Shown here one piece after another: positions 1 through 19,919 of a stretch of DNA of 22,294 nt (its first letter is position 1; each line of letters starts with the position of its first letter). This DNA is from a virus. The stretch is taken from IMG/VR virus record IMGVR_UViG_3300042330_000349, positions 1 through 22,294 of that record, one strand, 5' to 3'. A program made the position numbers and the translations under genes. The notes beneath the pieces are model-generated. The model did no database searches, was not told where the DNA came from, and saw only the letters and a list, made by a program, of their open reading frames with translations.

Positions 1-627
1 ACCGCCACGCGTCTTGGCTGCCGTCTGCAGCTTGTCGATCAGCAGCAGGGTCATCTTGTCGGTAGACGCCAGCGAGGCCTTGCTGGTCGCGGCGCCGCCA
101 TACAGCGTGTGCGCGGCGTCCGGCGCCTGGAACACCTGCGTGTCCGGAATACCGGTGTAGTCGAGGCCTTCGATGAAATCCTCGTTGATGCCACGCGCAC
201 CGGCTGCTGTCATTGAGTGCAGCTCGTCGTTCCAGCGGCCCCACCACTCGGACATGCGGGCGCGGGCAACCTGGCGCAGGTCGTGCAGCACGCGCTTACG
301 GCTCATCCGGCCGCCGGCCGAAGCGCCGAAACGCACCTGATTGATCAGCAGCGAGTCCTGAGCGAAGCGCAGGGCTTCCTCTTTGCCGTCGAGCCGGTCA
401 TCGCCGTAGGTGGCACGGCCGCGGAGCTGCTTGCTCAGGTCGAAGCGGATGGTGTCGCCCGCCTCGCTGGCCAGATCGGTCAGCACCTGAATGGGGGTAT
501 TGGGGGTCTGCCCGGCACCCTCGAAGCGCGAGCCGAAGTAGCTTTCGCGCACCTGGTCGACGTAGAGAGTGGCAGAGAAACGCTTGACAGCCTGCGGGCT
601 GTTGACGCCATGTGTAGTCGTGGCCAT
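1..627 (-). CDS. Major capsid protein, N4 gp56-like family (C-terminus outside window)
   Basis: Main shell protein of the virus head. Reading the minus strand from the ATG at 627 gives 209 open codons that run off the window at base 1, so the C-terminal part is missing. The translated stretch has the pattern of the N4-gp56-type major capsid family: an early segment with AGDTIRFDLSKQLRG, then GDDRLDGKEEALRF, then a basic helix with MSRKRVLHDLRQVARARM and the aromatic SEWWGRWNDE (residues from about 63 to 138). The start is set by a strong AAGGAG ribosome site 7 bases before the ATG. It follows portal and scaffold genes, the normal head-gene order. Family assignment is from remembered motifs, not a search. 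Confidence 0.85.
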   Translation of the reverse strand, partial: MATTTHGVNSPQAVKRFSATLYVDQVRESYFGSRFEGAGQTPNTPIQVLTDLASEAGDTIRFDLSKQLRGRATYGDDRLDGKEEALRFAQDSLLINQVRFGASAGGRMSRKRVLHDLRQVARARMSEWWGRWNDELHSMTAAGARGINEDFIEGLDYTGIPDTQVFQAPDAAHTLYGGAATSKASLASTDKMTLLLIDKLQTAAKTRGG

Positions 628-632
628 GAATG

Positions 633-700
633 GACTCCTTGAGGGAACAGGGGTCGGCACTCATGCGCCAGATTGATTGGCACCGCGCGCTCATGCGCAC
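633..700 (-). promoter_or_regulatory. Structured leader of the capsid gene: twin AUGA stem-loops plus a ribosome-site hairpin
   Basis: The 87 bases between the CsrA-like stop (715) and the capsid ATG (627) hold two similar short stem-loops on the minus strand. The first is GTGCGC-ATGA-GCGCGC (700 to 685). The second is TGGCGC-ATGA-GTGCCG (670 to 655). Each has a 6-pair stem, counting G-U pairs, and the same ATGA loop, and they are 30 bases apart. A third, imperfect hairpin (655 to 633, one mismatch) would hide part of the AAGGAG ribosome site of the capsid gene. Pairing is seen by eye. A regulatory or RNA-processing role is inferred. No convincing promoter or T-tract terminator is visible here. 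Confidence 0.45.
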
Positions 701-714
701 GGAGTGGCACCAGC

Positions 715-960
715 TTACCCGAAATTGAGCGCGGGTACAGCCAGCTGTGTGGGTTTTGCCGCAGTCGCCATCTGCTTGGGGGCAGATGGCGCTGCAGGCT
801 TGGCGATCTCTGCGCCAGCATCTTCGGCTCGAATGACCCGAACATCGTCGGGGCTGTCGATCTTCAGGCGCGCGCGGGCGCCCGACTTTGCCTCCACGGT
901 GATGACTGCCGCGCCGATCTGGATGGAGTCACCCGGCCGAAGATCCTGATACATCGCCAT
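715..960 (-). CDS. CsrA-like small RNA-binding protein (phage-encoded)
   Basis: An 81-residue protein whose first ~48 residues follow the CsrA/RsmA pattern: an R-P-G-D turn, I-x-I-G, a strand with VITVEAKSG, then ARLKIDSPDDVRVIRAED. This matches CsrA's VGE-xxxIG, TVLGVKG and RIGVNAPKEVAVHREE. The arginine matching CsrA R44 is kept. The usual N-terminal LTRR strand is changed, with Leu and Arg at the R6/R7 positions. CsrA proteins are dimers that bind GGA-containing hairpin loops in mRNA and control translation. The tail (residues 52 to 81) is an Ala/Pro-rich extension absent from ordinary CsrA. The gene lies between scaffold and capsid, so a target among head-gene mRNAs is plausible but unproven. 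A second ATG at 954 could be the start; neither has a strong ribosome site. Confidence 0.72.
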   Translation of the reverse strand: MAMYQDLRPGDSIQIGAAVITVEAKSGARARLKIDSPDDVRVIRAEDAGAEIAKPAAPSAPKQMATAAKPTQLAVPALNFG

Positions 961-1921: not shown

Positions 1922-4099
1922 TCACTGCTGGAAGGTGGGTTGCGGTTGAATCTGCGGCGGCTCATAGAGCCTATCCGCTGCGGGCACCAGCGGCACGGCC
2001 GCGGCTGCCAGTCCTGCCAAGTCGAGAGCCTTGCCACGGCCCTCAACACGCTTCTGGGCGGCCTGCGCCCGTAGATTCTCGGCCGCAGCGCGCTCCTTGT
2101 CCGTCTTGGCTGCCAGCAGCGCATCCTGCGCTTGCTGCGCCTGCTGCGCGGCCTGCTGCTGCGCTGTCCGCTCGGCCGCTGCGTTCGGATCTTCGGGCGG
2201 CGCATCGGTGCCATTCATGGCCCGAATGCGGCGGATGAACTCGGCCTTGTTGGGGATGTCGCTCAGCTCGATCGGCAGGTCCATCAGCATGATGGCCATC
2301 TCCGGCGGCAGGCGGCCGATCATCTCGAACAGCTGCTCAGCCATCGCCATGCGCTGCGTTTCTCGGTAGTCCTGCTGGTCGACCACGAAATCCGCGATGC
2401 CGCGGGTGACGTCGTTGCGGAACCACACCTGCCCCGTCTCCGCGTCGAACACGGGCTCGTTGAGCATCAGGAACTCGGCGCCACCGGTGGGCCCAAGGAT
2501 GCGGATCTGCTTCGGCATGGACACAAACTGCTCCATGATGCTGACCACTTTCTGTCCAGACAGCTGGATCGCGAGGCGGTAGTTGTCGAACACCTCAGCG
2601 GTCACCACCGCGCCCTGCTGCTGCTTTGCCAGGATGGCCCGGCCGCTGGTGGCGCCGCTCTCCTGCCCCAGGTTGTCCCGCGTGACGCCCGACGTCTCCA
2701 GAATCTGGGTCTTGCTCTGCTCCGCCAGCTCCAGATGGCCCTTGGCCACATCAGCCATGGTCTTGATTTCGATCTTCGCGAGGCCGCCAGAAGCCAGCCG
2801 CACCTGCCCATTGGGCATGGTGGCCTGCTCCAGCATCTCGTCCTCATCGTCCTCGTGGAATGCGCTGTCCTCGTACAGCACTTGATGCGTCGACATCGCA
2901 AACAGCGCCTTGCCGCGGCGCTTGTTGTAGTCCTCTTGCGGGTCGCGGACCATGCGGATCAGGCCATACGGCATGCCGTCGCGCTCGCGGCGGTAGCACC
3001 AGATCGGCGTGAACGGGAACTGGTTGTGCCTGTACGTGCTGGGCCGCGACTGCAGCAGCACGCCCGGAATCCAGAACGCGCACCACATGGTGTCCGTCAG
3101 CGAGTCGACCAGGCTGATCACACCACGGTCCTTGGCACGCTGGATCTCGTCGGGCAGCGGCTCGGCCGGGTCGAAGGCGGCGCCGTTGAGGTCCGAGAAG
3201 TCCTCAATCAGCGCGCGCACGCGGCGCTGCACCTTCGGCCGCTTGAACCACGTCTCATGCACGCGCACCCGCGTCCGCCAGCGGTTGCTGTTGCCAGTCA
3301 CGCCTAGGAAGCGGCGCCGCGGGTCATCGCGGCGGTCGGCCGTCATGAAGATGCCCGGCAGATCCCACTCGTCTACCTTGTCTTCTTCGGCCTCCGCGAA
3401 CTGCACAGCCGCCGCGCGGAGCGCATCCGCGTGCTGCGGCCACATGGCGATCGCGTAGTCGAGGTCGAGGTACTTGTTCCGGTCGATCCACCGGCAATCG
3501 CGCATGTCCGGGTCGCGTGAGAACGGGTCCCACCACATTTCCTGCCAGCGCTGATGCCGGATGCCCACCTCTTCCTCCAGCGCATCCGTGCGCAGGAACT
3601 CTTCAGTCCAGCCCACGCCCACGCGCACGCTGTCCTTGAACGCCGCGCTGCGCTTCCAGCCGGCCGAGTTGGCATCGCTCACGTACTTCAGCAGGCTGGT
3701 CTTGGCGCCGGCGGCTTCCACGTCCTCGCTGCCGCGGGGAAGCACCTTCCAATCGATCCTGGTCCGGCGCTCGGTGCCCACCACCCACTGGATCGTCGGG
3801 TGCACGATGTTGTAGACCAGAGGCGCCTGGTTGCGTTCTTCGAGCTCAGCGCGTGTTTCCGGGTCGAACTGGTCGCCGTCGTAGAAATCGCTGTCGATGA
3901 ACTGCTCGCGGCGGTTGTCCGCGTGCATGTCGCGGCCCTCGCTCCAGTAGTCCGTGACCAGCCGCAGGATATCGCGGGCCTCTTCCTCGGCTTTGCGCGA
4001 GGGCGTGGCCTCACCGGCCAGCGATTCGACCCGCACACCGCTTTTCGGGTTGTACCGGCTGTCTGGGTCAAACGCTGAGTCGGTGCGGACGTTATCCAT
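1922..4099 (-). CDS. Portal protein, P22-like family
   Basis: Forms the dodecameric ring at one head vertex through which DNA is packaged and ejected. The 725-residue length equals that of the P22 portal. The P22-type N-terminal pattern is clear: the FYDGDQFDPETRAELEERNQ segment (about residues 72 to 91) followed by APLVYNIVHPTIQWVVGTER and R-I-D-W-K-V-L-P-R-G. Later segments such as GATSGRAILAKQQQGA also fit. The last ~80 residues are an Ala/Gln-rich helix that could form the C-terminal barrel known from P22. The start at 4099 overlaps the upstream stop by 8 bases, as elsewhere in this operon. In-frame ATGs at 4105 and 4114 are alternatives, and none has a good ribosome site. Confidence 0.9.
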   Translation of the reverse strand: MDNVRTDSAFDPDSRYNPKSGVRVESLAGEATPSRKAEEEARDILRLVTDYWSEGRDMHADNRREQFIDSDFYDGDQFDPETRAELEERNQAPLVYNIVHPTIQWVVGTERRTRIDWKVLPRGSEDVEAAGAKTSLLKYVSDANSAGWKRSAAFKDSVRVGVGWTEEFLRTDALEEEVGIRHQRWQEMWWDPFSRDPDMRDCRWIDRNKYLDLDYAIAMWPQHADALRAAAVQFAEAEEDKVDEWDLPGIFMTADRRDDPRRRFLGVTGNSNRWRTRVRVHETWFKRPKVQRRVRALIEDFSDLNGAAFDPAEPLPDEIQRAKDRGVISLVDSLTDTMWCAFWIPGVLLQSRPSTYRHNQFPFTPIWCYRRERDGMPYGLIRMVRDPQEDYNKRRGKALFAMSTHQVLYEDSAFHEDDEDEMLEQATMPNGQVRLASGGLAKIEIKTMADVAKGHLELAEQSKTQILETSGVTRDNLGQESGATSGRAILAKQQQGAVVTAEVFDNYRLAIQLSGQKVVSIMEQFVSMPKQIRILGPTGGAEFLMLNEPVFDAETGQVWFRNDVTRGIADFVVDQQDYRETQRMAMAEQLFEMIGRLPPEMAIMLMDLPIELSDIPNKAEFIRRIRAMNGTDAPPEDPNAAAERTAQQQAAQQAQQAQDALLAAKTDKERAAAENLRAQAAQKRVEGRGKALDLAGLAAAAVPLVPAADRLYEPPQIQPQPTFQQ

Positions 4100-17117: not shown

Positions 17118-17788
17118 GGCTGCGGCTCCAGGTAGTGGGGGAATCCATCGCTGTCCTCGCACAGGTGCGAAGCCATGCGGGTTGTGGCTCTCAGCTCGTC
17201 GGACATGTCGTTCCATCCGTCGATCGCGCGGAAGCGGGCGCAGCAGGCGCGCACGGCGCAGGTCTTGGCATCTGCCGCAGGGCGGCGGCCGACGCAGCGT
17301 GTGGGCGAGCCTCGGCCGGCGGGCAGGGCGGCGGGGGTGTTGGTTGTTGGACGCATCCACCAGCTGTGCGGGCGACCGCGGCGGCCAGTCTCGCCGAAGT
17401 GCTGAATCGCGCCTGCTGCCGTGAGCTCGCGGCAATGCTTCGCCACCGTCGTCATGTCGCACAGCACCTGGTCGGCGATCTGCCGCGCAGAGACTGGCTT
17501 GGGCGATGCGGTGATCACCCGCAGGATCTGGGCGCGGATAGGGCCGCCGACATCGAGCAACCCCGCCTGTTTCAGCTCAAACTCCACATCGCCGGTGAAC
17601 TCTTCGAGCGACGGCAGCGGCTGGGTGTAGCGCGCCACCAGCGTGCGTTCTTCGGGCATGCGCGGCCGGACGCCCACAATCAGGCACTTTCGCGGCGTCA
17701 GCCATACCGGCACCGGTTCGTGCCAGCGCTTGCGGCCCTGCAGTAGCTCATAGGCGGCGTGGATGCGGTCGAGCACTTCGGGGGTCAT
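17114..17788 (-). CDS. Winged-helix DNA-binding protein candidate
   Basis: A 224-residue protein. Residues about 84 to 146 fit a winged helix: PIRAQILRVITASPKPVS, ARQIADQVLCDMTTVAKHCRELTAAG, then a basic wing with GETGRRGRPHSWW. This suggests DNA binding, as regulator or replication helper. The N-terminal part (VPVWLTPRKCLIVGVRPRM) is unrecognised. The C-terminal 75 residues are Cys/Arg-rich (KTCAVRACCARFRA) and may be a separate small domain. It overlaps both neighbours by ATGA. Confidence 0.6.
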   Translation of the reverse strand: MTPEVLDRIHAAYELLQGRKRWHEPVPVWLTPRKCLIVGVRPRMPEERTLVARYTQPLPSLEEFTGDVEFELKQAGLLDVGGPIRAQILRVITASPKPVSARQIADQVLCDMTTVAKHCRELTAAGAIQHFGETGRRGRPHSWWMRPTTNTPAALPAGRGSPTRCVGRRPAADAKTCAVRACCARFRAIDGWNDMSDELRATTRMASHLCEDSDGFPHYLEPQP

Positions 17789-18909
17789 GGCGTTGCCTCG
17801 AACAGGTCAGGGTGCGGGCGCTCTGCCCGGATGCGTGCGTCAGCCATCGCGGAGTACTCGGGCTTGATCTCCAGCAGCACCGCGTCGCGCCCGTTGCGCT
17901 GGCACACCAGCCCGGTAGTGCCAGCACCGGCGAACGTGTCGAGCACCTTGCCGCCCTTGGGGCAGCCGGCCAGCACGCACGGCTCGATCAGGGCAGGCGG
18001 GAAGGTGGCGAAGTGGGCGCCCTTGAATGGGCGGGTGGCGACAGTCCAGACGCTGCGGCGGTTGCGGGTTTCGGTATCGAACTCCGATTCAGCGCGGTCA
18101 GGCCGATGCGTCCCGACCGATTGCCCAGGGATCGCCTGCGCACGCTTGCTGCCTTCGCGCTTGAAGGTGTCGCGCTTGCTGCGCGGCCTCCACGGCTCGC
18201 TGCTGCCGGCGCCGCCAGACATGGGCATGTGAGCCGCCCCGCCCTGTCTGCCCGCGAATCCGTTGCCCGCTGGCGTCTGAGCAACCGCAGGCTCCCGCAT
18301 CGCCTCAGCGTCGAAGTAGTACCTCGGCGACTTCGACAGCAGGAACAGGTACTCGTGCGCCTTCGTGCAGCGATCGGTGACGCTCTCCGGCATCGGGTTG
18401 GGCTTGGCCCAGATGATGTCCTGCCGCAGATACCAGCCGTCCGCCTGCAGGGCGAAGGCGACGCGCCAGGGGATGCCCATCATGTCCTTGGGCTTGAGGC
18501 CGGTTTGCGCCTTCGTGCGGCCGATTCCGGTGTCCCCATGCAGGGCGCGTGCGTGCTTACCGCCACTGCTGCCGCCCCACTTGCCGTCGTTGGCATAGCT
18601 ATCCCCGAAGTTTACCCACAGCGTGCCGTCGGCCCGGAGTACTCGACGCACTTCGCGGAACACCGCGACGATGTGGCCGATGAAGGCCCACGGGTCGGAT
18701 TCCAGGCCGAGGCAGCAGGCCTGCGCCGGCACCGCGATCACTGGGAGGCCGGGCATCGGGCTGAACTCAACAGCCGGCCAATGCGTCGGCGGCAGGCCGT
18801 AGTCGCGCAGACCGAAGTACGGCGGGCTCGTGATGCAGCAGTGCACGGACTCTGCCGGCAGCGTGCGCAGGGTGTTGAGGCAGTCGCCGGTGATGATCTC
18901 GACGGTCAT
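17785..18909 (-). CDS. Orphan DNA methyltransferase (N4-cytosine or N6-adenine, beta-type order)
   Basis: A 374-residue site-specific methyltransferase that moves a methyl group from S-adenosylmethionine to an exocyclic amino group in DNA. The catalytic motif IV is TSPPY (27 to 31) and the AdoMet-binding motif I is FAGAGTTG (326 to 333), giving the catalytic-first order of beta-type enzymes. The central segment with IWAKPNPMPESVTDR and HEYLFLLSKSPRYYFD is also typical. No restriction nuclease is next to it, so it probably protects phage DNA from host restriction or marks it. SPPY favours cytosine-N4 but does not exclude adenine. The start at 18909 overlaps the replication gene stop as ATGA. 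Confidence 0.9.
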   Translation of the reverse strand: MTVEIITGDCLNTLRTLPAESVHCCITSPPYFGLRDYGLPPTHWPAVEFSPMPGLPVIAVPAQACCLGLESDPWAFIGHIVAVFREVRRVLRADGTLWVNFGDSYANDGKWGGSSGGKHARALHGDTGIGRTKAQTGLKPKDMMGIPWRVAFALQADGWYLRQDIIWAKPNPMPESVTDRCTKAHEYLFLLSKSPRYYFDAEAMREPAVAQTPAGNGFAGRQGGAAHMPMSGGAGSSEPWRPRSKRDTFKREGSKRAQAIPGQSVGTHRPDRAESEFDTETRNRRSVWTVATRPFKGAHFATFPPALIEPCVLAGCPKGGKVLDTFAGAGTTGLVCQRNGRDAVLLEIKPEYSAMADARIRAERPHPDLFEATP

Positions 18910-19919
18910 GCGCCTGGCTCCAGTGGCTCGTCGGACACGGTGCGCTCGAAGATGCGCGTCATGACGTCGGGGTGGGTGAGGTTCTTGAAGTCGGGGGTCC
19001 ATCCCTCGTGCCCGCGACCAGGCGGAGCGCGGCCGGACCAGAACGGATCCTGGGCGCAGGCGTCGAAGTAGGTCGCCCAGAAGTCGGGCGTGATGCGCTT
19101 GCTGCCGTTCATCTTTTCGCAGATCAGCGTCGCGACACCGATGCAGCGCTTCACCTGCTTGCGGCGCTGTGGCGTCAGCAACACCACGGCCGGCAGCAGC
19201 CCGGTGGGTTTCGCCAGCGCTGCGTTGTATGCCGCGATCGCCTCGGCCGTGATCTCGTGGGCCCTGCGCTCTTTCGGGTCTGCAGGCAGATCTGCCGGCC
19301 GTTCGCTGTCATCGGCTCCGTCCGATGACGAATCTGAGCGAAGCGAAGATAGCTCTTGCTCTTGCTTTGGAGACGGAGACGGAGACGGAGACGGAGACGG
19401 AGACGGAGACGGAGACGGAGACGGAGACGGGGCACTGCTAGAAGAGTGCTCAGGAGTGCTACTAGCACTTTCTGGCACTGCTAGATTGGTGCCAGGAGGG
19501 TGCGTGTCGCTTCCTTCGAGCAAGCGCGCGGCATACTCCGGCATCAGTCGAGCAGCCTCGCGGCGTCCTCGTTGCTTGCACAGAGCAGCCCACCTGGCCT
19601 TTTCGGATCGCGCCTCAGAGCCGGCCGCCCACGGGTTGTGCTCGGCCCAGTCGTGCAGCCGGCGCTCGCCGATATCGCCTTCAAGAAAGCGGACCTCGAC
19701 CAGGGTTTTTACCAGCGTTCCGGGCTCGCCTTTCCAGTCAACGGCGTCCTCGATGTCCTCGTCTTCCATGCCGGCCAAGTCGCCGTCTGGGCGGTGCTGC
19801 GCGGCGTACAAGAACAGCCAGACCAGGGCGAGAACACCCGAATCCCCCAGCCGGCGCTTCAACTTCTTCGTCTTGTGGTGCCCCGGCAGGCCCACTGCGA
19901 TACGGGCGTCGTCATTCAC
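18906..19919 (-). CDS. Replication-organiser / helicase-loader candidate with Pro-Ser repeat linker
   Basis: A 337-residue protein in three parts. The N-terminal ~135 residues look like the winged-helix part of phage replication initiators (GLPGHHKTKKLKRRLGDSG, VWLFLYAAQHRPDGDLAG). The middle is a flexible Ser-rich linker containing ten Pro-Ser pairs coded by a tandem hexanucleotide. The C-terminal ~110 residues include ITPDFWATYFDACAQDPFWSG and HEGWTPDFKNLTHPDVMTRIFE, recalling the end domain of helicase-loading proteins. Such proteins bind the origin and recruit the helicase, here the DnaB-type protein. The start is GTG at 19919, after a GGGGA element. The specific function is inferred. Confidence 0.65.
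   Translation of the reverse strand: MNDDARIAVGLPGHHKTKKLKRRLGDSGVLALVWLFLYAAQHRPDGDLAGMEDEDIEDAVDWKGEPGTLVKTLVEVRFLEGDIGERRLHDWAEHNPWAAGSEARSEKARWAALCKQRGRREAARLMPEYAARLLEGSDTHPPGTNLAVPESASSTPEHSSSSAPSPSPSPSPSPSPSPSPSPSPKQEQELSSLRSDSSSDGADDSERPADLPADPKERRAHEITAEAIAAYNAALAKPTGLLPAVVLLTPQRRKQVKRCIGVATLICEKMNGSKRITPDFWATYFDACAQDPFWSGRAPPGRGHEGWTPDFKNLTHPDVMTRIFERTVSDEPLEPGA
19369..19428. repeat. Tandem hexanucleotide repeat, GGAGAC x10
   Basis: Ten perfect copies of GGAGAC (plus strand) in a row, followed by a partial GG. On the minus strand the same array reads GTCTCC and encodes Pro-Ser pairs in the linker of the replication-organiser candidate. The 6-base unit keeps the reading frame, so copy number changes would alter linker length, not disrupt the gene. 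The neighbouring sequence is also Ser-rich. Confidence 0.95.

Follow-up and report, generated by a model that had tools for sequence, protein, structure and literature searches.

In CsrA, the LTRR stretch of strand 1 and the region of R44 have roles in contacting RNA. Concerning phages, small loop-specific RNA hairpins at the starts of transcription units are found in the nut/boxB-N system of phage lambda and in put of HK022, where they act on termination. In E. coli and P. aeruginosa, CsrA and RsmA activate ymdA and phz2, respectively, by undoing or preventing a structure that masks the Shine-Dalgarno (SD) sequence (PMC7652899). Phages also carry csrA genes, classed in earlier work as genes of unknown role, either "moron" or host-manipulating (PMC9144972, PMC7366521). 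In coliphage PTXU04, a member of another group, knock-down of the csrA homologue leads to smaller plaques, the role of the gene having previously been untested according to the authors (PMC11879866), and in Burkholderia phage JC1 CsrA was detected in virions on a single peptide (PMC9144972), so that, if this is real, the protein could be delivered with the DNA.

The capsid-gene leader of the window

The window is the whole stretch of 22,294 nucleotides analysed here (positions 1 to 22,294 of IMG/VR record IMGVR_UViG_3300042330_000349). Its genes all lie on the minus strand, in the order terminase, portal, a further head gene, CsrA-like gene (960-715) and major capsid gene (from 627), hence the relevant RNA is the reverse complement; folding the leader of the plus strand, which is the wrong one, gives no signal (z -0.8). 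Elsewhere in the window, 18906-19919 (minus strand) contains a tandem repeat that gives the predicted protein a long Pro-Ser repeat (PSPSPS...), and 17785-19002 (minus strand) is an ORF with a TSPPYFGLRDYG stretch that resembles a DNA methyltransferase. The features of the leader and its two flanking genes are as follows.

715-960, minus strand: CsrA-like gene, 81 aa, candidate hairpin binder (PHROG "CsrA-like regulator", E 4e-12)
628-714, minus strand: capsid-gene leader, 87 nt, from the stop of the CsrA-like gene (715) to the capsid ATG (627-625), from ORF coordinates
683-702, minus strand: distal hairpin CCGUGCGC-AUGA-GCGCGCGG, 8 bp, loop 691-694 (fold, and covariation in 10 phages)
655-670, minus strand: proximal hairpin, the conserved "A form", UGGCGC-AUGA-GUGCCG with loop 661-664; one G-U and one U-G pair among its 6 bp (fold and relatives)
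635-640, minus strand: Shine-Dalgarno AAGGAG of the capsid gene (sequence)
1-627, minus strand: 5' part of the major capsid protein gene, which runs off the window (Pfam Phage_capsid_3, PF13252, E 8.9e-31)

The two AUGA-loop hairpins that a preliminary description placed between the CsrA-like gene and the capsid ATG are confirmed by coordinates and fold: both lie inside the 87-nt gap with their loops 30 nt apart, and segment 650-705 (minus strand) alone folds into both of them at -24.3 kcal/mol (z -2.7, 2 of 200 shuffles as good). The string GCATGAGYGC occurs in the window at the two hairpin sites only, and GCGCANGAGYGC with one mismatch shows no enrichment within the window (9 occurrences against 7.5 expected). 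Since the fold score and the one-mismatch count are only moderate statistics, the leader was compared with those of relatives; the window by itself is modest evidence, and it is the cross-phage comparison that is decisive.

A conserved hairpin across related phages

Relatives were collected through IMG/VR scans with the capsid of the window and the capsids of three relatives, together with two named phage records, which yielded 217 loci where the capsid start could be placed, with 132 distinct leaders among them. A hairpin was scored when at least 4 bp closed an ANGA or ANGAN loop through a C-G pair within 95 nt of the ATG. By this rule, the C[ANGA(N)]G hairpin is present in 106 of the 132 distinct capsid leaders, the next-best of the 64 loop classes tested reaching 10, and dinucleotide shuffles give on average 1.5 leaders with the hairpin, with a maximum of 6. 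Several of the 26 leaders that fail this strict rule carry variants, and the CsrA-like gene is still found in 21 of the 26.

The usual proximal stem is GCGC/GUGC with a kept G-U pair, and the letters of the A-N-G-A loop are constant. In divergent phages the stem is rebuilt as GGAGC/GUUCC, GGGC/GUCC or GUUC/GGAC. The alignment of relatives thus yields the pattern that the preliminary description had suggested looking for, i.e. a loop that is fixed (as ANGA) while the stems covary, and the compensatory stem changes, together with the G-U pairs, point to an element that acts as RNA. Loop types tend to be common to one genome and different between genomes, which makes these phages a candidate case for co-evolution of an RNA-binding protein with its loop sequence. 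In one relative (L004), both loops upstream of the capsid gene depart from ANGA together, reading AUAC and AUAG, which may reflect a change of specificity in this phage.

Rfam returned no match for the window leader at E<=5 and none for 12 related loci at gathering scores, so that the RNA element, although widespread, is absent from Rfam; no description of it was found in the literature searched. Concerning promoters, 47 of the 106 capsid leaders of related loci have a sigma70-like -35/-10 pair ahead of the hairpin, at a distance of 10-17 nt; in the window's own leader none is obvious by eye.

Two ANGA hairpins by the same rule are found in 8 of the 132 distinct leaders, namely in the clade of the window and some others. 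Among the distal hairpins of 10 phages, six of the eight pairs change on both sides, and 85% of the cells are paired against 59% after shuffling and 21-52% in slid controls, a comparison in which three of the ten were added by eye and most were chosen as hairpins, which favours the inner four pairs and affects the outer ones less. The second hairpin is therefore real but a minority feature. Twin hairpins as a rule, and with them the matched pair gripped by one CsrA dimer that the preliminary description had brought into play, are not supported as a general rule; in the phage of the window, the distal ANGA hairpin would probably add a second docking site for a CsrA-like dimer.

A competing fold predicted to mask the capsid start

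If the capsid start is included in the fold of the window leader, a long-range pairing, or "B form", is predicted to replace the proximal hairpin. It is made of the following parts.

658-665, minus strand: 5' strand of the long-range helix, CAUGAGUG (folds of 625-714 and 600-720; constrained folding)
653-655, minus strand: inner 5' part of the helix, GAC (constrained fold)
633-635, minus strand: inner 3' part of the helix, GUC, overlapping the last SD base (constrained fold)
625-632, minus strand: 3' strand of the long-range helix, CAUUCAUG, which includes the capsid start codon 627-625 (folds; complementarity across phages)

The bases that immediately precede the capsid ATG are complementary to the loop and the 3' arm of the hairpin; in the window, the complementarity extends to part of the ATG. 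Constrained folding of the window leader gives -24.3 kcal/mol for B and -18.8 kcal/mol for A. As both forms use the same bases, they are mutually exclusive.

The pairing was evaluated in a divergent sample of 41 representatives with less than 75% capsid identity. Pairing of the hairpin with the phage's own start averages -11.5 kcal/mol, against -8.3 kcal/mol when the partners are permuted among phages (z -8.8, 0 of 2000 permutations as good, n=41), while shuffled 3' segments and other gene starts in the same loci reach -6.3 and -5.6 kcal/mol, respectively. Altered arms come with altered partners: GGAUGUGCC with GGCACAUCC (L020), GGAAGUGC with GCACUUCC (L009), GGAGCGCC with GGCGCUCC (L015 and L061) and GGAUGGGCUC with GAGCCCAUCC (L048). 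In L015 and L061, for example, the 3' arm has become GCGC jointly with a change of the sequence before the AUG to GCGC. B is predicted to be more stable than A in 33 of the 41 representatives, by a median of 6.1 kcal/mol, B not being the more stable one in the remaining 8. The leaders hence combine what characterizes a switch that masks the ribosome-binding site (RBS): two mutually exclusive folds, one of them masking the RBS, and covariation. It should be noted that the pairing that can mask the capsid start does not appear in the preliminary description, nor does the spread of the hairpin to other late genes.

Copies before other late genes and co-occurrence with a CsrA-like gene

The motif recurs across 40 large related contigs. 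In several relatives, genes matching endolysin, holin, head protein, tail-fibre, internal virion protein and DarB families have a copy 21-32 nt ahead of their start, mostly with the SD in between. These copies, too, pair with the start regions of their own genes better than with permuted ones (0 of 5000). In Sinorhizobium phage PBC5, AUGA hairpins with different stems precede the capsid gene, the endolysin gene, a virion gene and DarB. In the record of the window and in a near-identical relative of 63.6 kb, the full motif takes up a leader position before the capsid gene only. Copies inside ORFs (L259, L262, L292, L295, L297 and L298) were judged to be chance occurrences. In PBC5 (L224), the divergent endolysin and capsid genes lie back to back, each with its own ANGA hairpin, at 3861-3877 (minus strand) and 3949-3960 (plus strand), and the same paired arrangement is seen in relatives of the L016/L034 type.

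Each of the 40 large contigs encodes one CsrA-like protein, in some of them kilobases away from the capsid gene. In BcepMigl, DC1, PEp14, Itty13, Parlo and ZX1 the capsid leader has the hairpin, and the CsrA-like gene either directly precedes the capsid gene or is separated from it by one small gene; in PBC5 the CsrA-like gene is gp26, 30 kb from the capsid gene. A hairpin tied to an adjacent csrA gene was therefore rejected, given the distances in PBC5 and its relatives. The viral collection was also scanned independently of the capsid, with GCGCAUGAGUGC plus SD as the pattern and AUCA as control loop: among the matches listed, a CsrA-like protein is encoded in 27 of 44 leader-context contigs against 1 of 50 control-loop contigs, two sets that were filtered differently, as the 44 were pre-selected for leader context and the 50 controls were not. 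The 17 contigs with no CsrA-like protein among the matches listed hold mostly copies inside ORFs or are fragments. The neighbourhood of hairpin and CsrA-like gene, which had been remarked on for the window as a coincidence, thus extends to an association throughout a large phage group.

Two phages considered as further members, PTXU04 and F116, were discarded, as their capsid leaders have no hairpin and their csrA genes are elsewhere. F116 (L309) has AGGA-loop hairpins before two genes, in the leaders at 33981 and 39487 of its record, and its csrA-like p47 is not beside the capsid gene.

The CsrA-like protein

The protein of the window matches Pfam CsrA with E 1.3e-5 and 25.4 bits, just under the curated cut-off of 27, and the same Pfam family matches 41 of 52 phage relatives. 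A profile built from these 52 relatives finds RsmE (2jpp) in the PDB with E 1.6e-11. The AlphaFold monomer model (pLDDT 77.6) has only CsrA or RsmE structures among its top 15 PDB matches, with probabilities of 0.91-1.00 and E values of 6e-3 or weaker. By profile and predicted fold, then, the phage protein family belongs with CsrA.

At the first Arg of the E. coli LTRR in strand 1 most phage proteins have a hydrophobic residue, while Arg or Lys is kept at the next position; the Arg at position 44 is kept in many of them, not in all. As most are devoid of an N-terminal Arg of bacterial CsrA, RNA binding by the phage proteins cannot be assumed. The same replacement, together with a loop of the form C-ANGA(N)-G where CsrA has C-A(N)GGAX-G, fits the changed specificity that the preliminary description had offered as one explanation for the loops.

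Proposed mechanism and alternatives

We propose that late phage genes are controlled through the proximal hairpin, a conserved RNA element whose reader would be the CsrA-like protein that the phage itself encodes. Form A would contain the 5' hairpin GCGC-ANGA-GUGC and leave the ribosome site open; form B would mask this site, its loop and 3' arm sequence (ANGAGUGC) being paired with a stretch that immediately precedes the AUG or includes it. With B predicted to be more stable, the mRNA would be largely off in the absence of the protein. A CsrA-like dimer that binds the ANGA loop could bind form A only, and so would hold the hairpin and switch translation on; capsid synthesis could in this way be coordinated with that of endolysin, holin, DarB and other late proteins. 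Since the loop can be bound only in the hairpin form and the competing form masks the site, activation is the simplest reading. Its direction is deduced from predicted energies and the mutual exclusivity of the folds, and to the reading as a whole, in which we infer both binding and activation, we give a probability of about 0.6. The more specific proposal, that a diverged phage CsrA with a code of its own, C-ANGA-G, activates translation of capsid, lysis and DarB genes through the hairpin/RBS-masking switch and does not serve to rewire the host, stands at even odds.

Against activation stand the 8 of 41 representatives in which B is not more stable, the 26 of 132 leaders that fail the strict rule and the fact that CsrA represses more often than it activates. 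The same element and binder could indeed work with the opposite sign, a dimer bridging the hairpin and the AGGA of the SD (or the twin hairpins) and repressing until it is titrated, e.g. by packaging into virions. Repression through binding at two sites is generally known as the commonest mode of CsrA action (reviewed in PMC7652899), the SDs of these leaders contain GGA, and JC1 virions may contain CsrA (one peptide, PMC9144972); nevertheless we consider repression unlikely, as it gives no account of a kept, covarying B fold that already masks the start, and late genes must be strongly expressed. Neither does the fixed ANGA loop on varying stems agree with a hairpin that works independently of any protein, either as a 5'-terminal stabilizer of the mRNA or as part of a purely kinetic or temperature-driven A-B switch. 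This reading would profit from the promoter-like pairs found upstream in 47 of 106 leaders, which put the hairpin near the mRNA 5' end, and from the formation of A before the B partner is transcribed, but it is quite improbable given also that the hairpin accompanies the CsrA-like gene (27/44 against 1/50 among the matches listed, with the sets filtered differently as described).

Covariation with the bases just before the AUG would not be predicted for a nut- or put-like antitermination RNA that stands at the 5' end of each late transcription unit and equips RNA polymerase with a factor, and the candidate protein is predicted to have a CsrA fold. That copies head late units behind promoter-like sequences, and that loop-specific reading by a small phage protein resembles boxB/N, leaves such a role very improbable all the same. 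Least credible are roles as a DNA operator, as a site of RNase processing or as the target of an RNA-binding protein of the host: GCGCANGAGYGC is near-palindromic, but the compensatory stem changes and G-U pairs point to RNA, and the distance from the -10 to the hairpin varies, which also disfavours a DNA element at fixed promoter spacing. Host CsrA as the reader is opposed by the lack of a chromosomal csrA in two hosts of phages in the group, B. cenocepacia and S. meliloti (PMC7366521), and this argues that in those hosts phage RNAs are the targets. Activation by the phage's own CsrA-like protein would suggest a job for phage csrA genes, with the phages' own late mRNAs as a concrete set of targets.

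Comparison with known systems

The CsrA/RsmE consensus, an A(N)GGAX hexaloop, and the phage element are both short C-G-closed hairpins with a loop that starts with A and has a purine-A core. The phage loop is one G shorter, C-ANGA-G or C-ANGAN-G. The loops of the window are AUGA and, across the phages, the GGA that a canonical CsrA site has in its hairpin loop is contained only in loops of AGGA type; the ANGA hairpin is thus not a canonical CsrA site, yet it may work like one. From lambda nut and HK022 put, as generally described, it differs in that the leader covaries with the start-codon region and that the candidate binder is CsrA-like.

E. coli flhDC also has CsrA sites near the mRNA 5' end and a leader with two sites (PMC7652899), but acts via protection from RNase E, whereas the covarying partner in the phages is the ribosome-binding region. 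Comparable, too, are ymdA and phz2, with a CsrA-family protein, a leader that can mask the SD and an open form that is favoured or allowed by binding (PMC7652899). In these two systems, CsrA works at GGA sites to undo or prevent the masking, while the phage leaders have a dedicated competing 5' ANGA hairpin, reused before several late genes, and a putative binder. The element is hence best described as a putative variant of Csr-type translational control, its membership being limited by the non-canonical loop.
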